64,000 nt of DNA from Mesaphorura yosii. Lineage: Eukaryota > Arthropoda > Collembola > Poduromorpha > Tullbergiidae. The notes below the pieces were generated by a model that worked only from the letters and a program-made list of their open reading frames with translations, was not told the origin of the DNA and ran no database searches. Where the stretch lies: positions 1-64,000 of the forward strand of contig WIXG01000007.1 of NCBI GenBank assembly GCA_009869945.1. Reading direction: 5' to 3'. A program made the position numbers and the translations under genes. Within the stretch, counting starts at the first letter, position 1. Each line of letters begins with the position of its first letter. Below are positions 3,301 to 54,355 of the stretch, piece after piece.

Positions 3301-4071
3301 AGATATTCAAATTCCAAGTTTTTAACTCCGTTAGCGATATTTACGTGTATGATAGACGCAAATGTCTCTAACTGTGTTTGTGTGTGCAAATGTTTCTTTG
3401 TACTCCGCATGAAGACGCCAGGGTTTTCCGATTATATGATTCAATGATTGCTGATTGTTATGGATGAACCTAAACACACAAACCTTCTTCTTCATACCCG
3501 ATACGTTTATAAATCGCTTCACTGAACTACCCTGAACACATAATGCAAATATCGCATGATCACAGCCAATCAGCAGTGTCTCCTAGTTGGGACCCTGTCT
3601 CTTGATCTGGAGACAGCGAATTCGCGATCATTTGTCCTTGTTTGTTGCTGGCAGCTTGACGCTTCGCCGGATACTCCGCGTGCAAATATATTTGCCAAGC
3701 GTTATCTGACTATGACCAATGTACGTTTCAGTAAGAGATGAACGTTGGAGTGCGAGTGGAGAGAAGACAGACAGAGCGGATTGGCTGAGGCAGCTCAGCC
3801 TATGAACATTCAGTAAATGATAGGGTCCTGCTTATTGAGGCTCCTATCTGCACTGTGAACTTGTTATTGCAAAGCACAAGTTGAAATTTATTAGTCGGTT
3901 GTGCAATCATGCATTAGCATATTTCTATACATTGGATCCTATATATTCATTCGTTACGAGATCACCAGTATCGCTAAGATTATCATTATCACATACTCGT
4001 CCTTTGGTTGTAGCTTATGACTAACGCACATGCGGCTGCTGAGCGCATGCATGCTGAATATTAATTATCTG
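3301..4071. other. STAT 3' flank, no gene seen
   Basis: No coding frame with splice support. It holds the STAT downstream region; I did not find a convincing polyadenylation signal close to the stop. Confidence 0.4.
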
Positions 4072-7000
4072 TTAGGTTCTGCGCAGCAGTTCTCGAAGAT
4101 GTGAAGGACAGAAGAAGGGTATGGACTGAGCTTCTATTTGATTACTCAGATAAATTCCTGCACAATTAGCATGAACGTAATAATTGCACTGGGCGACCAG
4201 TGTTTTGCACTTGAGCCATACGGTGGTGGTCATTTCCACTACTTGAGAAAGTGGATCTTTGACTGAATCACATATTCTGCAACTGACATCAACGCTTGGC
4301 CTTCGGTTTTCTATTGCACCTGGCTGACTATTGTCTGTACTGCTCGAAGGACTAGAGCTATCGGAAGGCTTGAATCTTTTGATTCCAGACGAAGACGCGC
4401 GTTTTGTGATATGCATATTTTGGAAAAGTCTTTTCAGAACCTCGTCGGGAATTGAATTTGGCTCTCGCCGCACAAACTCGTGTTTCACGGAGTCCGGCAG
4501 TTCAATGGCGTCCCTGCCTCCATCCAACGAGTCACAAAGAATTGAATTTTCTATCATCAAGAAAACGCGACAGCCGCAGGTGTTGGTCAAGTCCTTTGCC
4601 TGTTCGAAAATGAGAACTCACATAAAACATTGCAGTTATTTCTTTGAGCTTGAGCCTGATTTCTGACAATTTCTGATTCCTACCCATTTTGCAAGGGACT
4701 TTTTCCGCTTGGATTTTGACTTGTCGCGATCCCGTTTCTTCATGATAAATCCCGCATCAACTTTTCGACGCGTGGCTTTCAATGTACCCTCTGCAGTTGT
4801 CGCCATAAGCTTGTCCGCGGCAGTCCCGGTGCTGTCCTGAGAAGGAAGAACTGTGCCACTTTCCATCCAGTCGACATGGTCCACGCACACCATGGTCGGA
4901 AAATTGGAGGACACTTCAGCAGATTGAACGGCACTACCAGCTGATGTTATAGTTTGATTGTCAAGGTTCATGAAAACTTGCTCCCGAGCGCTCATCACGT
5001 CGTCAAACTCGTCATCGAGCGCCTCTAACTGGACAGTCTCCACCGTTGAAATGCTGCTGCCCGGGCCTAAAGTTGATAGTTCGGAAGTTGCATCAGCTTC
5101 GTCTGGCCAGTTGGAAATGTCCTCCAGAATCTCTTCAAATACAGCTTCAGAGTTTGCATGTCTAAGATGAATAATAGGAAAAAATTGTGCAAAAAACTGA
5201 CACTAATCATGGCGGAATGGCTACTCACTTACTCAGGTGGCGGTATCGGGAAAGGGGACGGGGCTGAGTCCAAGTACCCCAACGAATCGGTCACCCTGCA
5301 TAAATGTCAAAATTATGCATCAAGAGAAGCGGCCGGCTAACACCCATTTCTTGTATTCCTTACCCAGGTAAGAAGGTTCTCATTAATGGCTTGATGTAAC
5401 TCATGTGACTTTGCTTGTTGATTTGCTCACTGGTCATATCAATCGGCTTGACAAATAGTGCGAGCTTCTCCTCCAGTGGAATATTTGGATAAACGAACTT
5501 GAAGGTATTCATGTCCAGTAGACGATTAATGAGGCCCCGCTGCCTCAAGTCAGCGGATGTGAACGGAGCCACATTGAACACAATTCTATCTTTGTACAAT
5601 TGAGAAAGAATTCAATTAATAAAGCCACACGGATCGTTGGCGGCAGGAATTGAGCTCACCTGCAGAGATGCAAGCAACTGACAATCCACCAAGGCAAGAG
5701 TCGGAAAACCGCAAGATGATGGTCCCTGCTTTGCACCGTTTCAGCAATTCCTCAGTTCTTTCTCTCGAAACAAACCCCATAACCAGGCCCTCGTTCCAAA
5801 GATCTTTTAAATTTGACTCCAGTTTAAATAGTCCAACAGCTGATTGGAACCAGTTCCAGAACGTAAAGTTACGATGTGACAAAATTTCACGGTAGAATTT
5901 TGAGCCGATGATGTGGTCATTGTCGCTGACATTGAGCTCTCGATAAAGCTTTGACTTCAGACAAGTCAGGCTCTCATCGTTGAGGTTGCATCCAGTTTTA
6001 TCGTGGAAGAACTTCTTTAGTTCTGCGGCTAAAACTGGCCAGGTTACTTTTTCTAGCATGTTGAACACCCAACCAGCAATTGAATCATGTTGGTTGCAAA
6101 GGACATGGTTCCAGAATATTGAAGCTGATGCGTTCGTATACTGAGCCGTGTTAGTTATTGCCACAAATGGATTGGAAAGCACAGCTACATTAAGCACCAA
6201 ATCCGATATTCTTACGGTTGTCTTGAACTGAAACCAAAATGCTTCCTCAAATACCGGCCTTCGAAACTCCCTTCCTTGTCTTCGAAGTCTTTGGATTTGT
6301 AAATTTTTGAACGTGGCTAAAACTCTTTTAGTATGTTCCACGTATTTGAAAGTAGTCGTATTGTTGAGCAAGCTGCTGGAGTCCCCGGAACTGTCAGAAC
6401 CATTTACGCAGTCACGCTGCAGCTGGACGTCATCTTCGTACACCACAGAAGCGGTGACCATTTGCCCAAGCCAGTTTGTACTGAGGGTGTTTCCAATGAG
6501 GAAGCGTAGTATGATGCCTGGAAGACGCGAGCTGTGTTTCACAACTTGAGGTGGTTGTATTTCGACTATGAACGACGCAGTCACCAGCTCCTTCAACAAA
6601 TTTTCTGCCTGCTTCAAGAAATCGGCAACAAGGCAAATATTTTAAAGTGGCAGTTATTTTAAGTCCTTTTTACAAAATAAAATTACCTACCTCAGATCGG
6701 CGATCGCTCTTAAAAACACAAGCCAGCATCTTGTACTCATTCAGGTCGCCCATACGTCTTCGGAAGCCGTCCATAACACTTAAATTCGACCGCAGCTTCA
6801 GTAAACTATCAGCCAGCAATTCGCAGTGACGTTGAATATCGTCCAACCGTAGACTCAGTTGCTCGTTCTCCAGATCTTGTATATCTTTCTTCCGTTCGTA
6901 GAAAACACAAGAATTTTGGGAGGCCTTCCACGTTTTAATGTCTTCCTGGATTTTAACAAGTGCAACGGAAAGAGTGTGAAGAGTCAAGGCTGACTTTTCC

Positions 7001-7397
7001 TCGGCGTCACGCCCGAGAAGTCGAATCTTCTCTTGTCGATGCTCGATCAGTTCATTCAGCGTCGCCATTTGAGAGCTCAAATTTTGGTTTGCACTCAGTG
7101 GTGAATTTTCATCTTCCAGGAGCTGTGAGCCTGATCCTTGAAACGTGTGAATTTTCATGACTCCTGAAAAACATCAAGTTTGCAGCTGTAAATTTTGCGT
7201 ACGAGCAACCATTTTAGCGACTTACTGTATAACTTCTGACGGTCACGCCAGTTAAGTCCGAGTAGCTCCAGTTCATCCTCAAGCATTTTTAACACGTCAC
7301 TTAACTCCTTGTGCATGGCTTCCAGAATTTGCGGGTCAAACCTTGAAAAATGGTCAGGAGCCGCTGGTGGCGCCGCCGGAGCATCCGCCCTGTCCAT
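4072..7397 (-). CDS. STAT: STAT transcription factor with C-terminal PHD-like zinc finger
   Basis: Signal transducer and activator of transcription: a latent cytoplasmic factor that dimerises through pTyr-SH2 contacts after JAK-type phosphorylation. Seven exons join in phase: 7397-7226, 7163-6691, 6608-5660, 5589-5364, 5295-5233, 5161-4684, 4599-4072 (2889 nt, 962 aa). The order is coiled coil (about 30-215), beta-barrel DNA-binding region, linker with L-W-N-E-G-L-V-M-G-F, SH2 domain (I-L-R-F-S-D-S, Arg about 515), then a single-Tyr motif L-G-Y-L-D-S (Tyr about 614), an acidic stretch and a basic K/R tract. The last exon has Cys/His at about 894, 897, 918, 925, 930, 933, 951 and 954, arranged like a PHD finger. 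The usual ~120-residue N-terminal domain is absent, and a TATA box 84 bp above the ATG argues that this is a true start. Failure to splice the last intron would give a shorter protein without the finger. Confidence 0.88.
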
Positions 7398-7480: not shown

Positions 7481-7488
7481 TATTTATA
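7481..7488 (-). promoter_or_regulatory. TATA box of the STAT gene
   Basis: TATAAATA on the minus strand, 84 bp upstream of the ATG at 7397. The spacing fits a core promoter with a short 5' UTR. It supports initiation just before the truncated N terminus. Confidence 0.5.
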
Positions 7489-8785: not shown

Positions 8786-11700
8786 ATGGAGTCCAGAAGC
8801 AGAAATCCAATTGGGTTCATTTGGTTGGCTTGCTTGTTGTTTCCAGTGTCGTCGCTTTCATCGGCTCTTCTTCCGGGTACAGGTATGGACAATTGACTTT
8901 TCTTTCAATACTAAGCCACTAATACGCTCAGGACTCATACAATGCATTTTTATCAGATGTCATCAACCAGTTATCGGCTGCTGGAAACGGTAGTTTGACT
9001 GCTGTTCAGGTTCGAAATGAATCTCTCCCAGAAAGTTCAAACATATCCGACATCAGCACAGAAAGTCCTTATGTGCTGACAGCAACAACTTCGGGTTCGA
9101 TTATTGAAGACGAGTTCGGCAACCAGACGACGGTGGAGGAATCTGAATCTAAAACGACGGTTCAAGAAAGCGCACAGGATGATCTTCAACTCAAGAATCT
9201 GAAACATGGCAAAGGCAATGATTCAATGCCCCTGAATATTATAGTGCTTGGGCTGACGGGTGAAGAGAAGTTGTCGGTGGTAAGTACAGTTATTCAGTAT
9301 AATAAAATCGTGCATGATTTTAATACAATTCATTGATTAACAGTTACAGAACATCATCGGACATCAATTTATTCAGCCAGTGTTCCCAGATTCAGACGCT
9401 TTCATTACGGAATACTTTCTTGCCAACACGTCGTCAACCTCACGTCTTCGTATTGTCGATACTCCAGCAATTACGGGACATTCGCAGAACGCATCACACG
9501 ACGCCAGAATATTCGCCACTGTCCTTGACTATTACTCCGAGCCTTCCAATCTTTCACCACTTCTGATTTTAATCGCTCTGCCATTGGAAGCTGAAGGAGA
9601 AAATCGGCGTGCTCTGTTTACCTTGCTACAAAGAACCGCCATTTTGAGGGAAGCCTTCGCAGAGTCTGAGAAGGAGACTAATTCTCCTGCAACTTCAGTG
9701 CTGATCGTTCAAATCAATACAAATCAAGACAGTTCCACTGAAGAAATCTGTCCTTATTCGGAATCTAACACTGGACCTCTGATCTCACTACTTTTACACG
9801 AGCAAATAAGAACTTGTTTCATAATATTGCTGCCAAGATTGAAAGGAAACGGAGTTCGACTTCAACCGTGCAACTGTTCTTCGGATATCAACAAATTGCA
9901 ATTGGAACAACAATTAAACTTACCTTTTTTTGACAGCCACTTTTCGTCAGATGACCAGAATTCCAATCCCTACTCACACTTCGTCAACCAGACTTATCCG
10001 TTGACCAACAATTCTGATCTTGCCGGTCTTGTGATGCGGATGTGGGCGGCAGACGAAGTAGTTCGCGCGCAACCACCAACTGAAGTTAACATCATGCTCG
10101 AGGCAAATTATGCCAAGCTGGACTTAGAACTGCGAAGAAAGTATCCAGGATCACTCCAGTTGCTGCAGAAGCAGATGCTAACAAGGAATGTCACGAGAAG
10201 GGGCCAAGTACCGAATGAACTTCGTCGTCTCCTGCACAATTCAACAGACCTAAACCCCGCTATGCTCGCCTTGCTCCAGGCAGCGTTCCCAGTCGTGGTT
10301 CCAGAAATTCATTTCGAGCCGCTGGTTGGAAAAGGCTACGACCCCATCACTGATTCACCAGTAGAGTCGCCCTTCACGTTTGATAGCATGGAATTCTGCA
10401 AGTTGGGCTTCATGCTACCAAAGTCCATACGCATGACACTGATACTGAGAAGCAGCAACGCAGAAGTCAATCATATCAAATTCCACATCAGTGCCAAATC
10501 TTTGGTTGCATCCCGGATGAAAGAACTCAATGTGACAATCAAATTGAACGAAACCAGTTTTGGTGGCGAATTCCGTCCGGGAGATATTTTGCTCAGTTTG
10601 TTCAAGAACACTGCAGTCACTCGAGCCAGGATCACTGCCACCAGAGAAATTCACAAATTTCAATTCACGTTGAATCGCGACGATGTAAAGTTCAAGCCGG
10701 AGTTTCTGGACCAAATTGCGACCATGCCCGCGTTTAGCGTTCATGACAGAGATTCGGTGCAAGAGTGGAAGGTCTTGCTGGATGAATATGGGACTCACGT
10801 AGTGACTTCAGCGTTTGGTGGTGGTTACCTCGAGGTCATGATCGAATTGAAGAATCACGAATTCCGACTATTTCAGTCCGGCAACGTAACCGCAGTTCGA
10901 AGAGTTCTGGAATCCGTGCTCTCAAATCCCGTGCAATTCGTGAACTCAAATTCCAACCTCACAGTTTTATCATTGAGTGCCAAAGGTGGTGGTGTACAGT
11001 ATCATGATGTGAATTTAATGAAGCTTAATCGCACGGTTATGGCCAGCACTCTGGAATCATGGAAGAATTCTCTGATATTCGACCCAATCATGGTCGAAAC
11101 TAGACTTAAATTGGTGCCGCTATCCGAGTTTGTGCGTAGATTCAATGCTAGCGCTGCAAGTGAGTTGACAAAGGCGGCGAGAGCCGTATTTCAGGGCAAT
11201 CTCAGATACATTCTGCTACCTCAGCCCAAACCTCCTTCACCTTCACCTGTGCAAAGTGTTAGAACATCAACAGGTAGTGACCATAGTGACCAACTAAATC
11301 AGAAGTTGAAGCGGGCCGAAGATTCCGTCCTCCCGCCCAGGACAAGTGCGGGCACCAGCGTCGGCAGGCCTTCTGGTCCAATCATCTCGACTGTCGTGCG
11401 AAACCTGCTGCCAACACGAGAACAATTTGAACAGAATAACAAATTACTTGAGTGCTTGCAAGCTTTTATAGCAAGTCTTGATGCCCAAATTCAGCAATCC
11501 CCCGACGATTCGACACTCGCACCACTTGCAAATGATATCGAGCAGCTTTACAATCAAATCGCAAATACGGGGACAGCAAACACACGTGAACGGCTACTGA
11601 TTGAAGTGATTTGTCTGAATTTTTCAAAGACGCAGTCATTGCCACTCGAGCAACTCAAGAATTTGGTACAGTTTCCTGAAGATTTGAGACCTGAAACGAA

Positions 11701-13162
11701 ACTGCCGCCGGTGAGCACGGCGCAGTCGCCGACCGAAGACATGAACGGCTTCCCTCAACTTCACACAGCCAAGCTGAGGAGCACGGATGCAAACTTGATG
11801 AGTCGAATGAAGAATATTGCCGGATCTGTGTGGCAGCTCGATGGCTTACCGAAGCCACAGCGACAAATCACTGATTATAGATTTATTGGCTACGGTTACG
11901 ACTTGCTGTGGGACGAAGTCACGTCACACTCGCCGTTCCTCCTTACAGAAAATTCATATAACAAGGTTAACATGCGAAGTTTTCCACGACCGGAAGTAGT
12001 ATTTCAATATTTCACCAGCAAGTCCGAGTGCATCGCTGCTCGATGGCGCACTTTGGTATCAAGCTCATTTCGGCAATTCATGCCGTCAAAATTCCGAGGC
12101 AGATTGCAGCCTGGGCAGAGTTATGCGGAGTCGGATTACGTTTCAATTGTGCTTGAGTACAGGAAATCACTGGTCAGACTGCCAGTCAATGAGCCTCATC
12201 ATTTGCGGTTGAGTGAAGATTTTAGAAACGAACTGGGACGTCTTCCGCTTCCATTTGACTCCAACAACTGTACTTTTACAAACGCTTGGAAGCGATTTCT
12301 AAATCGGTACGGCACACATATCGTAATTGAGGCATTTCTTGGTGGCGGAATAGAAGTCAGAGGGTCTGGCCGTTTGAAGGAGTCTTTGCTGCAACTCCGT
12401 GGTGTTAGGTCCGATGAAGTCTTGTCAGCACTCAAGTTTTCATGCACAGCGACAATGGAAAACTCAGACTGCACATTCCGCGTGACTGGTGGGAATTCGT
12501 CGATATTCACATCATGGAATGTTTTTGATTCAGAACAATTTGAATCCTGGATCGCCTCAATTCCAAGTAACTTGGTCGTCCTGCCTTCAAGCATCAAGCT
12601 GAAGAACTTATACCACATCATCACGAATTCGTTCGGCTTAGGCTCAGTTTCTTTTGTTGAAGTCGGGACTCAATTCCTCGCCAACTCAAATGCCTACCAT
12701 TCGGGAGAACTGACGGCTTGTCGCGGGAGTACCCGATGCAGACCTTTTGAGAGCTACAATGAGACGAGTAATTCGTGCACGTGTCCCGCTGGACAGATTC
12801 GAAACCTGCAGACAGGAAGCTGTGAGGCTTTGGTTGGTCACAACTGCTCGCCATCATCATGGGATAATTGCATACAAAACGCGATCTGTGCTGCAGCTGC
12901 AACGCCAGCGCCAGCAAAGCAGGATGGAAGTTCGGTTTGTAAATGCAGGCACGGTTACGAAACGCTGCCATCAGGGAAATGTTCCGTGTCAAGCTCTGAC
13001 CCTGACCGTCAAAGCTGTCATAACTGCATTCCGACGACGCTACACACAAACGCGACGATGACTTGTAATTCCGAAGGAGCGTGTGGAAATTTTTCATTTC
13101 ATGTGCACAGTTCCATGAATAAGTCAAGTAGCAGCCAAGTAGTAGCAGTAAGTAGTAGTTAA
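8786..13162 (+). CDS. Secreted protein with two MACPF domains
   Basis: Three exons join in phase: 8786-8882, 8957-9279 and 9350-13162 (4233 nt, 1410 aa). The first exon encodes a signal peptide (hydrophobic L-A-C-L-L-F-P-V core, then S-S-A). Two copies of the membrane attack complex/perforin signature are visible: E-Y-G-T-H-V-V-T-S-A-F-G-G-G with Tyr about 620, and R-Y-G-T-H-I-V-I-E-A-F-L-G-G-G with Tyr about 1127. The C terminus (about 1260-1400) is Cys-rich and EGF-like, with C-T-C-P-A-G and C-K-C-R-H-G-Y. Before the first MACPF lies I-I-V-L-G-L-T-G-E-E-K-L-S (about 127-139) and, some 40 residues on, R-I-V-D-T-P, resembling degenerate P-loop and switch motifs of a GTPase fold. An intron falls directly after the P-loop-like motif. 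MACPF proteins form or derive from oligomeric pores; whether this one does is unknown. Confidence 0.85.
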
Positions 13163-13741
13163 TCACTGATAAACCATAGTTTAAAAAAGGATTACTGCCT
13201 TGTACAAAGTTAAAAGGTGAAACTACCTTGCTGCTTGCAGTGGCTTGCCAGACTTGACCTCTGCCTCTGCTCTAGGATTACATTTACGAAAGTACAAACT
13301 AGTCTTCTAATATTGAGCTGGGATGACGGCGACTGTAACTGTAACCTTGATGAATGTCTTCTCTCAATACTGTAATTCCTTTAAGTGTTTTTGCTTTATG
13401 GTACAAAATATATCACAACTGAAATAAAACTATTGATGTGTTATTTTAGCCTAATAATTTTATTCAGTGATTCATTTGCATTGATTTCAAGATCCAAGTG
13501 CTCGTTAATGATGCAATTCAATTACATATTACAAAGGACCAAGCCGGACTCTTTTATAAAAGGCTTAAACGAGACGAAATCGAAAGTAACGTTCATTGAG
13601 CAAAGATCAGATTCGTAGAGGTACCGGACTCCGAAGGTATTTTATTGGCTACAGAGCTCGACTTCAAAAAGTTGCAGGGAAAGTGGACGTGCTTCTGGCA
13701 GCATCAGCAGTTTTGAATTTATTCGAAATCAGCAGTCAAGG
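13163..13741. other. Short intergenic region
   Basis: 3' UTR of the MACPF gene, with a polyadenylation signal AATAAA at about 13421, followed by the 5' flank of the threonine synthase-like gene. No gene seen. Confidence 0.5.
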
Positions 13742-15268
13742 ATGAGGTACTTCAGCACCCGAGGGCAACTCGCCGCCACTTCCTTCGAAGAGGCTCTCTT
13801 TTCTGGCTACGCAGGCGATGGTGGGATTCTCATGCCTGAAACAATACCCCAGCTAAGCCCCGAGACCCTTGCTCAGTGGAAGCACGAGAAGTTAACCTAC
13901 CCACAAGTTGTGCAGCGAATTATCAGACTGTATGTGCCTTCGGAGGAGATTCCTGACGAAGATCTGGACAGATGTATTCAGAATAATTATGCGACCAAGT
14001 TTACGCGCAAGGAGGTCATTCCCATCACTGAAATCAAGGGGAATCAAAACTCGAAGGTGAAGATTGCTGAGTGCTACCATGGGCTGACGAAATCGTTCAA
14101 GGATTTGGCGATGTCTCTGGTCGGATATCTGATGGGCTACTATTTGGATAAGAAGAGGAGGCATGTAATCGTGCTGGTAAGGAGTCGCTTAGGGATTAGA
14201 GCGAGATTCGCAGCTGCATTTGCTAATCGCTTAAATTGACAACTTCGACAGGTTGGAACGTCAGGGGATACAGGCAGCGCCGCGATGGAAGCAGTGCGAG
14301 ACTCCAACAACATCGACATTATTGTTCTATATCCTGGGAACGGGAGAATTTCAGCAGTGCAAGAGCTACAGTTGAAGTCCATCACCAGCAAGAATATTCA
14401 TCTGATGGAGGTGGACGGAACGTCGGACGATTTGGATGTCCCGATTAAGAAGTGCTTTCCGAGCGAAAATCTCATGTCAATAAATTCACTCAACTGGGCC
14501 AGGATTATGATTCAAATTTCTCACTACGTGTACTTTTATCTCCTGGAGTCCGGTGCTGGCGCAAAGGAAGTGAACGTAATCGTTCCGACAGGCGGTGGCG
14601 GAAACCTCACTGCTGGACTTTTCGCAAGCAAAATGGGAGTGCCGATCAAACTCCATTTTGCGACCAATGAGAATAGAAGTGCGGACCAGTTTCTTACGGA
14701 CGGAGTGCTGAAGTACGGGACCGACATCATTCCAACACCGGCGTGCGCAATGGACATTGGACAACCATACAACGTGGAAAGAATTGTGTATCTTTTGTCC
14801 AATGGCGATGGCAAGTTCGTGGCCGGGTTAATGAAGGACGTTGAGAGTGGGAAGGGCGGAAGAATTACAGATCAGATGTTGACCAGCCTGCGCGAAGTCG
14901 TGAAAGGGTCTACGAGCGTGTCCAGTCAGAATATTTACGATACGATGAAGAATTGCTGGACAACAAATAAATACGTCGTTTGCCCTCACACTGCGACGGC
15001 ACTGCATTACCTCAACCAGAATTGTGCCGCTGCCGCAGCAAACGACTCCAAGTCATTCTACATCGTGTCAACAGCATCGCCTCACAAATTCCCCGAGGCC
15101 GCTGAGGTAGTTGGAATTCCAGTGCAAGATTGGAATGGGAACGAACTGCTGGACAAATTGAAGTCGGCCAAGCTTGGGATTCCTAAGACACTGTGGAAAG
15201 GAGACAACTGGCATAAAATTCTACTAGATGAAATCAACACAATCAAGGCGGTGCGGTCGACTAACTGA
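13742..15268 (+). CDS. THNSL2: Threonine synthase-like 2, PLP-dependent phospholyase
   Basis: Fold-type II PLP enzyme related to bacterial threonine synthase; animal THNSL2 acts as an O-phosphohomoserine/O-phosphothreonine phospho-lyase and does not support full threonine synthesis. Two exons, 13742-14176 and 14252-15268, join in phase 0 to give 483 aa, the normal family length. The start matches the family (M-R-Y-x-S-T-R-G). The PLP lysine sits in T-K-S-F-K-D-L-A (Lys about 120). V-G-T-S-G-D-T-G-S-A-A follows the intron as the phosphate-binding loop, and P-T-G-G-G-G-N is the later glycine-rich loop. A polyadenylation signal AATAAA lies at about 15323. The gene looks intact. Confidence 0.92.
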
Positions 15269-51470: not shown

Positions 51471-53590
<2,120 letters not shown>

Positions 53591-53723
53591 GGTGTAAACT
53601 TCACGGCTTTGAGCCAGGTAAAGAACTGAGACGAACTGGTTGAGCGACAACCATCGAAATCAATTCATTCGCTGCAAATTCGTGCAGTGACATTACAAAA
53701 TGTCAATTCGACACTCTCAAGTG

Positions 53724-53731
53724 CTTTTATA
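53724..53731 (-). promoter_or_regulatory. TATA box of amylase copy B
   Basis: TATAAAAG on the minus strand, about 134 bp before the ATG at 53590. No equally clear box is seen before copy A. Confidence 0.5.
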
Positions 53732-54355
53732 ATTGTCGGCTATTTTTAATTTATCCAAGTACGCGAGTTCCACAGACGTGGAATTACCTTAGAACTTAAC
53801 ACTTGAGTATCATGCTGTGATTATATGATAAATTCCTGAAACCAAGCTCTATTTGCATTGCAAATGCAGTACTACAAATTTTAGCAGCTGATTACCACAC
53901 CACTTGCATTTTCAATACGTGCAAATACTACAATTTTTCCAGGCATGATTGATTGAATCCAGGTCGTGACTCATCGGTCATTAGATTCTCTTTCTCGAAG
54001 CCACTGATTATATTCCAAGATTTGACCACATCGGAAACACAAACACGAGGCTCTGTGCTCGTGCTCAGAGCGGTGTTTGGTTTTCTTAAGCTTTTCCTCA
54101 AGTAATGCATGCGACGATGGATGATGTCCTCAGTCTGTGAGAAATACAGAAGTTGAGAATGTTGTTTTGTGATAATTTGGAGCAAGAAGGCGAAAACATG
54201 CACGCGTGATCCTTGAATAAAGCATTTCCTTAATTTCGCCTCGAGAAGCTATAAAACAATGCACAAAAATTTAATTCTTTTGAAGTATACTTTAGAGCAG
54301 AGTTATAAGATAAGAGCTATTTCGGTATGTGATCACTGGGAACAATTAAGCAAAG
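53732..54355. other. Intergenic, no gene seen
   Basis: Upstream flank of amylase copy B. No supported exon. Confidence 0.4.

Follow-up and report, generated by a model that had tools for sequence, protein, structure and literature searches.

In a window of 64,000 nucleotides from the collembolan Mesaphorura yosii (the whole stretch of DNA that was analysed), we predict a single spliced gene encoding a STAT5-type protein without the STAT N-domain, followed by an acidic region, a divergent MADS box related to that of SRF, and a C4HC2H PHD-like finger. We assign this reading a probability of about 0.6. Its scope is one species, and the sole other copy found is a dead duplicate. As part of the same reading, the tail MADS box would have descended from, or share an ancestor with, an SRF-type MADS gene. 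The observation of the first-pass annotation from which the study started, a STAT reading frame running into a last exon with Cys/His ligands, is confirmed by sequence comparison as more than chance. No description of the combination of a STAT, a MADS box and a finger-like end was found in the titles and abstract openings listed by literature searches.

Gene structure

The predicted gene occupies the minus strand from 7397 to 4072. It consists of seven exons with 962 codons in an unbroken frame, separated by six introns that are all of the GT-AG type and 62–84 nt long each. The features of the locus are as follows.

7483–7488, minus strand: TATAAA promoter-like site, 91 nt 5' of the ATG
7226–7397, minus strand: exon 1, start codon and beginning of the STAT coiled coil; no match to the STAT N-domain
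6691–7163, minus strand: exon 2, STAT coiled coil (gene model, Pfam)
5660–6608, minus strand: exon 3, STAT DNA-binding domain, linker and first half of SH2 (GTIILRFSDS)
5364–5589, minus strand: exon 4, remainder of SH2, with Y596 (SYIKP) as the tyrosine of activating type
5233–5295, minus strand: exon 5, second tyrosine motif GYLDSAPSP (Y614), which is GFMDSVPSP in the duplicate
4684–5161, minus strand: exon 6, encoding an acidic tail that may serve transactivation and, after it, the MADS-box N-terminal arm and basic helix
4600–4683, minus strand: intron 6, 84 nt, phase 0, within the MADS box; GT-AG also in the duplicate
4072–4599, minus strand: exon 7, remainder of the MADS box, constrained segment aa 816–865, Ser-rich linker, finger, stop codon
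4546–4770, minus strand: MADS-box-like domain, aa 759–805, split by intron 6 (4600–4683)
4099–4281, minus strand: C4HC2H PHD-like finger, aa 894–954, eight ligands; PHD_NSD and PHD matches below cut-off
3887–3892, minus strand: AATAAA poly(A)-signal-like site, the first such site 3' of the stop codon

The claim that the frame passes in phase from the SH2 domain into the last exon is borne out by this model. That the last exon belongs to the STAT gene also holds as a prediction: the sense strand contains a single TATAAA from 7700 to the stop codon at 4072, namely the one at 7488, and no AATAAA or ATTAAA between the sites at 6939 and 3892. By these motifs, nothing indicates another promoter or poly(A) signal separating the STAT part from the last exon. 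The 5' region (7737–7398) aligns with the duplicate on contig C251 with 261 of 314 aligned bases identical.

Two other coding regions were seen on the plus strand of the window. The first (9341–13159) is an open frame of 1273 codons with two MACPF (perforin-like) stretches (6.8e-28). The second (13619–15268) corresponds to a pyridoxal-phosphate enzyme, with a PALP match of 2.1e-9 in the frame 14240–15265; taken together, the frames 13619–14239 and 14240–15265 look threonine-synthase-like by eye.

STAT core and tyrosines

Pfam STAT_bind (3.6e-16, 60.4 bits) and STAT_linker (9.5e-16, 58.4 bits) both matched the protein above their cut-off of 27. Matches below the cut-offs were obtained for SH2 (0.0014, 19.1 bits, cut-off 21) and, weakly, for STAT_alpha (0.016, aa 25–195). 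When residues 1–646 were compared with PDB sequences, STAT5B was the best match (E 6e-56), followed by STAT5A and STAT6, and then by STAT1 and STAT3. The SH2 motif LRFSDS is aligned within the STAT5B match, and its Arg is presumably the phosphotyrosine-binding residue.

The alignment with STAT5B stops at Y596, where MSYIKP stands opposite GYVKP; on this ground Y596 is the activating-type tyrosine. A further tyrosine, Y614, lies downstream in GYLDSAPSP. The protein had been said to carry a single phospho-tyrosine motif, which is wrong, since there are two tyrosines and it is Y596, not Y614, that pairs with the activating tyrosine of STAT5B.

No Pfam match to the STAT N-domain was found in the 962-codon protein, whose model begins in the coiled coil. 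This start lies behind the TATA site, the surroundings of which are kept in the duplicate. A passage of PMC3296744 describes the STAT N-terminal domain as variably conserved; in the light of that passage we read the absence of the domain as a mark of a variant STAT and not as grounds for exclusion from the family. The protein is thus, as predicted from its sequence, of the STAT5 type without an N-domain.

MADS box in the C-terminal tail

The MADS box is the DNA-binding domain of SRF and MEF2. The Lys/Arg tract noted between the acidic region and the last exon is indeed present; however, it appears to form the basic helix of a divergent MADS box lying over the exon 6/7 junction and not to be a linker. 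The Pfam SRF-TF model matched aa 766–804 of the full protein with 1.1e-4 (22 bits, cut-off 26), a 106-aa piece of the tail with 1e-5 (25.3 bits, just under the cut-off of 26), and the joined fragment of the duplicate with 1.7e-6 (27.8 bits, above the cut-off of 26). A phmmer search of the PDB with the 106-aa piece returned 18 matches, 17 of which were MADS proteins (MEF2, MCM1, SRF) with the best E of 0.0017; the ten best MEF2 chains had E from 0.0017 to 0.0034. A profile made from the SRF and MEF2 of the same genome aligned with aa 759–804 without gaps, scoring 25.6 bits on the piece and 20.8 bits on the whole protein, whereas no shuffle of the piece, out of 20000, scored above 11.5 bits. The matched segment is encoded on both sides of the exon 6/7 junction.

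Elements retained in the tail are the R-x-K of the N-terminal arm, the helix with SKRK and the strand C-x-C/VxLMI. Where SRF and MEF2 have a conserved T-T-F stretch, the tail has K-S-K, which counts against our preferred reading, and no alignment to MADS proteins was obtained beyond about aa 807. Because of these two losses, DNA binding may have been lost. Thus, judged by sequence similarity, the tail appears to carry a divergent MADS box with its DNA-contact part partly kept.

Intron 6 hints at a source of the domain. In the SRF gene of the same genome, a phase-0 intron interrupts SKRKTGIMKK|AYELS at the same MADS codon as intron 6 does in SKRKKSLAKW|AKDLT, while the MEF2 gene of this genome has no intron at that codon. 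Given the common position and phase, splicing of intron 6 and derivation of the tail from a MADS box are both very probable. Descent shared with SRF-type genes is supported as well, even though MEF2 is closer in amino acid sequence, and the shared position suggests acquisition of MADS exons as the route of origin. If intron 6 were retained, the protein would gain the tail VGIRNCQKSGSSSKK followed by a stop, and the same reading in the duplicate gives VRS and a stop. The proposal that the gene yields two isoforms, one of them through this retained intron, finds no support, as the tail (VGIRNCQKSGSSSKK versus VRS) is not conserved.

Probable zinc finger

The spacing of Cys and His in the last exon is as had been described: C894-x2-C897, C918-x6-C925, H930-x2-C933 and C951-x2-H954. 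This ligand order is that of PHD fingers; the x6 spacing between the third and fourth ligands (C3 and C4) is unusual, the usual PHD spacing being x2, and the last ligand is His, which we take to be as in some NSD-type fingers. The best Pfam families were PHD_NSD (6.4e-5, 23.6 bits, cut-off 23.9) and PHD (0.0019, 18.6 bits, cut-off 24). A scan of the genome with the PHD_NSD model lists the locus at 23.1 bits; a scan with the generic PHD model at E 0.01 gave 41 places, the STAT-tail locus not being among them. No PHD was present among the PDB matches found by phmmer with exon 7 (15 matches) or with the finger (1 match).

A genome-PHD profile of 16 sequences was derived from 30 loci taken from among these 41 matches; 17 that covered nearly all of the model were chosen, and one of them (L054, empty) was left out. 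On this profile the finger scored 9.9 bits, and the same or a better score was reached by 22 of 20000 free shuffles and by 694 of 20000 shuffles with Cys and His fixed. In the profile-profile comparison with PHD, 4 of 200 Cys/His-fixed shuffles equalled the finger. In Pfam, the only PHD_NSD match among ten fixed shuffles scored 12.8 bits, not close to the score of the finger, but one RING-type match reached 21.1 bits; a sub-threshold zinc-finger match can therefore arise from the ligands alone. Of the assignment made in the first-pass annotation, the ligand pattern stands; PHD is the class with the best Pfam scores, but these lie below both cut-offs and similarity beyond Cys and His is weak. 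On sequence criteria the region is likely to be a zinc-binding finger, and its identity as a PHD is plausible.

Duplicate copy and selection

A second copy of the gene was found on contig C251 of the genome (G000:C251, in L004), with coding remains at about 52626–54209. It aligns with the window gene over the 5' side, exon 1, part of exon 2, exons 5, 6 and 7, introns 1, 5 and 6, and the 3' flank. Only 168 of 473 bases of exon 2, 7 of 949 of exon 3 and 0 of 226 of exon 4 are aligned. The copy contains frameshifts and an in-frame TAA in the finger, and Y614 is replaced by Phe; by its sequence it is an internally deleted pseudogene. It retains the order of exons 5-6-7 together with intron 6, all eight ligands of the finger, and exon 6 from its first codons (HANSEAVFEE) to the last. 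A divergent STAT-like gene (L004:1263–3335, minus strand), which by eye ends soon after SH2, adjoins the dead duplicate.

The identity between the two copies is 63% in intron 5, 72% in intron 6, 81% in exon 6 and 84% in exon 7. Omega was calculated by the NG86 method between the window gene and the duplicate, leaving out gapped codons and the TAA codon. It equals 0.295 for exon 6 (130 codons) and 0.213 for exon 7 (155 codons), with 0 of 2000 codon bootstraps reaching 1 in each case. The lowest value belongs to the MADS part (0.113, 51 codons, bootstrap 0.026–0.32), followed by aa 816–865 (0.138, bootstrap 0.043–0.335) and exons 1–2 (0.198). For the finger omega is 0.296 (64 codons) with a wide bootstrap range of 0.121–0.723 and 0.5% of bootstraps reaching 1; for the acidic part it is 0.385 (bootstrap 0.215–0.71), and for the 21 codons around Y614 it is 0.523 (no bootstrap).

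From these values, exons 6 and 7 are seen to have diverged as coding sequence under purifying selection. The low omega of the MADS part and of aa 816–865, with one copy now dead, suggests that both copies were constrained for long; for the finger and the acidic part the constraint may have acted on one copy alone. To judge from the duplicate, the STAT-MADS-finger unit is old and was formerly constrained. The segment aa 816–865 (window 4366–4515, minus strand), between the MADS box and the finger, has no convincing Pfam match, and its constraint is similar to that of the MADS box.

Relatives in the genome and in the literature

The genome assembly comprises 93.0 Mb in 1127 contigs. MADS matches above the cut-off were found at two loci, MEF2 (C463) and SRF, the latter in two exons (C405). 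The STAT-tail locus is absent from the matches of the six-frame MADS search; an intron divides its MADS box, so that this is the expected outcome. Further STAT loci were found on C391, twice on C55, and on C1062 (L020, L021, L022, L023), in addition to the neighbour of the duplicate on C251; the locus on C391 contains GYVKP and has the strongest STAT_bind match. The STAT family thus seems to be expanded in this lineage. The genome scans with the MADS, PHD_NSD and PHD models list none of the other STAT loci, with the reservation that an intron-split MADS box could escape, as it did here. The cuticle family Chitin_bind_4 has 66 matches in the same genome, as suits an arthropod.

Searches of the genome at E up to 10 returned for exon 6 only itself and the C251 duplicate, and for exon 7 six matches: itself, the C251 duplicate in three pieces, and weak matches on C86 (E 0.58) and C84 (E 6.2). 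The C86 match was rejected as a relative of exon 7: its frame of 99 codons lacks the eight ligands, and the matched piece has no Pfam match. No relatives of exon 7 were found in viral contigs or in bacterial and archaeal contigs, which says little about animals. In the literature no description of a STAT with a MADS box or a PHD finger was found in titles and abstract openings among the matches listed, most subscription journals and bioRxiv-only preprints being outside the coverage.

Alternative explanations

The locus could instead hold two adjacent genes: the STAT would end in exon 6 (or in a retained intron 6), and a MADS-finger gene would start inside exon 6. Internal ATG codons in exons 6 and 7 would allow this, and the single gene is itself a prediction from DNA. 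However, exons 6 and 7 are both covered by the MADS match, which makes exon 6 common to the two parts, and this exon is conserved between the copies over its entire length, starting with HANSEAVFEE. Moreover, the sense strand is free of TATAAA, AATAAA and ATTAAA between 6939 and the final stop, the unit was duplicated in the same order on C251, and the retained-intron tail is not conserved. We consider the two-gene arrangement improbable.

Two other alternatives concern the function of the tail within one spliced gene. The MADS-derived tail may no longer bind DNA: the basic helix would then serve nuclear import or bind a partner (e.g. SRF), and the finger would bind proteins or have a structural role. 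Such a change would fit the missing T-T-F stretch and distal MADS fold, as well as the preserved basic SKRK and the strong constraint; but the N-terminal arm with R-x-K, the helix with SKRK and the strand C-x-C/VxLMI are all kept under constraint, which would exceed the needs of nuclear import. We hold such a change of function to be a serious possibility, somewhat short of even odds. Nearly even, though still on the doubtful side, are the chances that the finger is a true PHD reading histone H3 tails. PHD_NSD and PHD are its best Pfam families and the ligand order fits, and, by comparison with BPTF, we assume that W915 and Y927/Y928 could supply the aromatics of a cage. Against this, both Pfam matches are under the cut-off, C3-x6-C4 exceeds the usual x2, the generic PHD model at E 0.01 misses the locus, PHD is absent from the PDB matches, and Cys/His-fixed shuffles equal the finger on the genome-PHD profile (694/20000) and in the profile-profile comparison (4/200).

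Possible mode of action

STATs are phosphorylated on tyrosine and then pair through SH2-phosphotyrosine contacts, and MADS halves work as dimers. In the single-gene reading, phosphorylation of Y596 would lead two molecules to pair in the manner of STATs. The pairing would bring two tails together so that the MADS halves could pair in turn and add a second contact, with DNA or with a partner such as SRF, while the finger might tether the complex to a cofactor or to chromatin. Two DNA-binding folds and a finger of chromatin type would then act together in delivering a cytokine-type signal. In its full form, a signal-activated factor with STAT and MADS folds and a histone-reading finger, in which SH2 dimerisation switches on the MADS dimer and composite STAT and CArG-like sites in marked chromatin are recognised, this scheme is speculative and we think it unlikely to hold in every part.

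Tails are the variable part of the STAT family, and we found none described as built from the DNA-binding domain of another factor. If the protein is made, one polypeptide would tie cytokine-type signalling to a target code of the MADS type and might also tie it to chromatin.

Comparison with known proteins

With STAT5A and STAT5B of the STAT5/6 subfamily, its top PDB matches, the predicted protein shares an alignable DNA-binding domain, linker, SH2 and tyrosine (SYIKP/GYVKP). It differs from them in having no detected N-domain and in a tail composed of an acidic region, a MADS box and a finger. The C-terminus of STATs is characterised in part of PMC3296744 as the least conserved region, responsible for transactivation.

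The C251 duplicate resembles the window gene on both flanks, in exons 1 and 5–7, in a portion of exon 2 and in introns 1, 5 and 6, and differs by the loss of most of exons 2–4, the frameshifts, the TAA and the change of Y614 to Phe. PHD fingers (PHD_NSD, PHD) have the same eight ligands in order and are the best Pfam families for the finger in the window, which in contrast has the C3-x6-C4 spacing, scores under both gathering cut-offs and shows scant similarity beyond the ligands. SRF and MEF2 share 46–48 ungapped columns with the STAT tail, whose amino acids are nearer to MEF2, whereas the position and phase of intron 6 are as in the SRF gene of the same genome. The STAT tail has conserved neither the T-T-F stretch nor the portion beyond about aa 807, and, unlike in SRF and MEF2, the MADS box in the window sits in the tail of a STAT.
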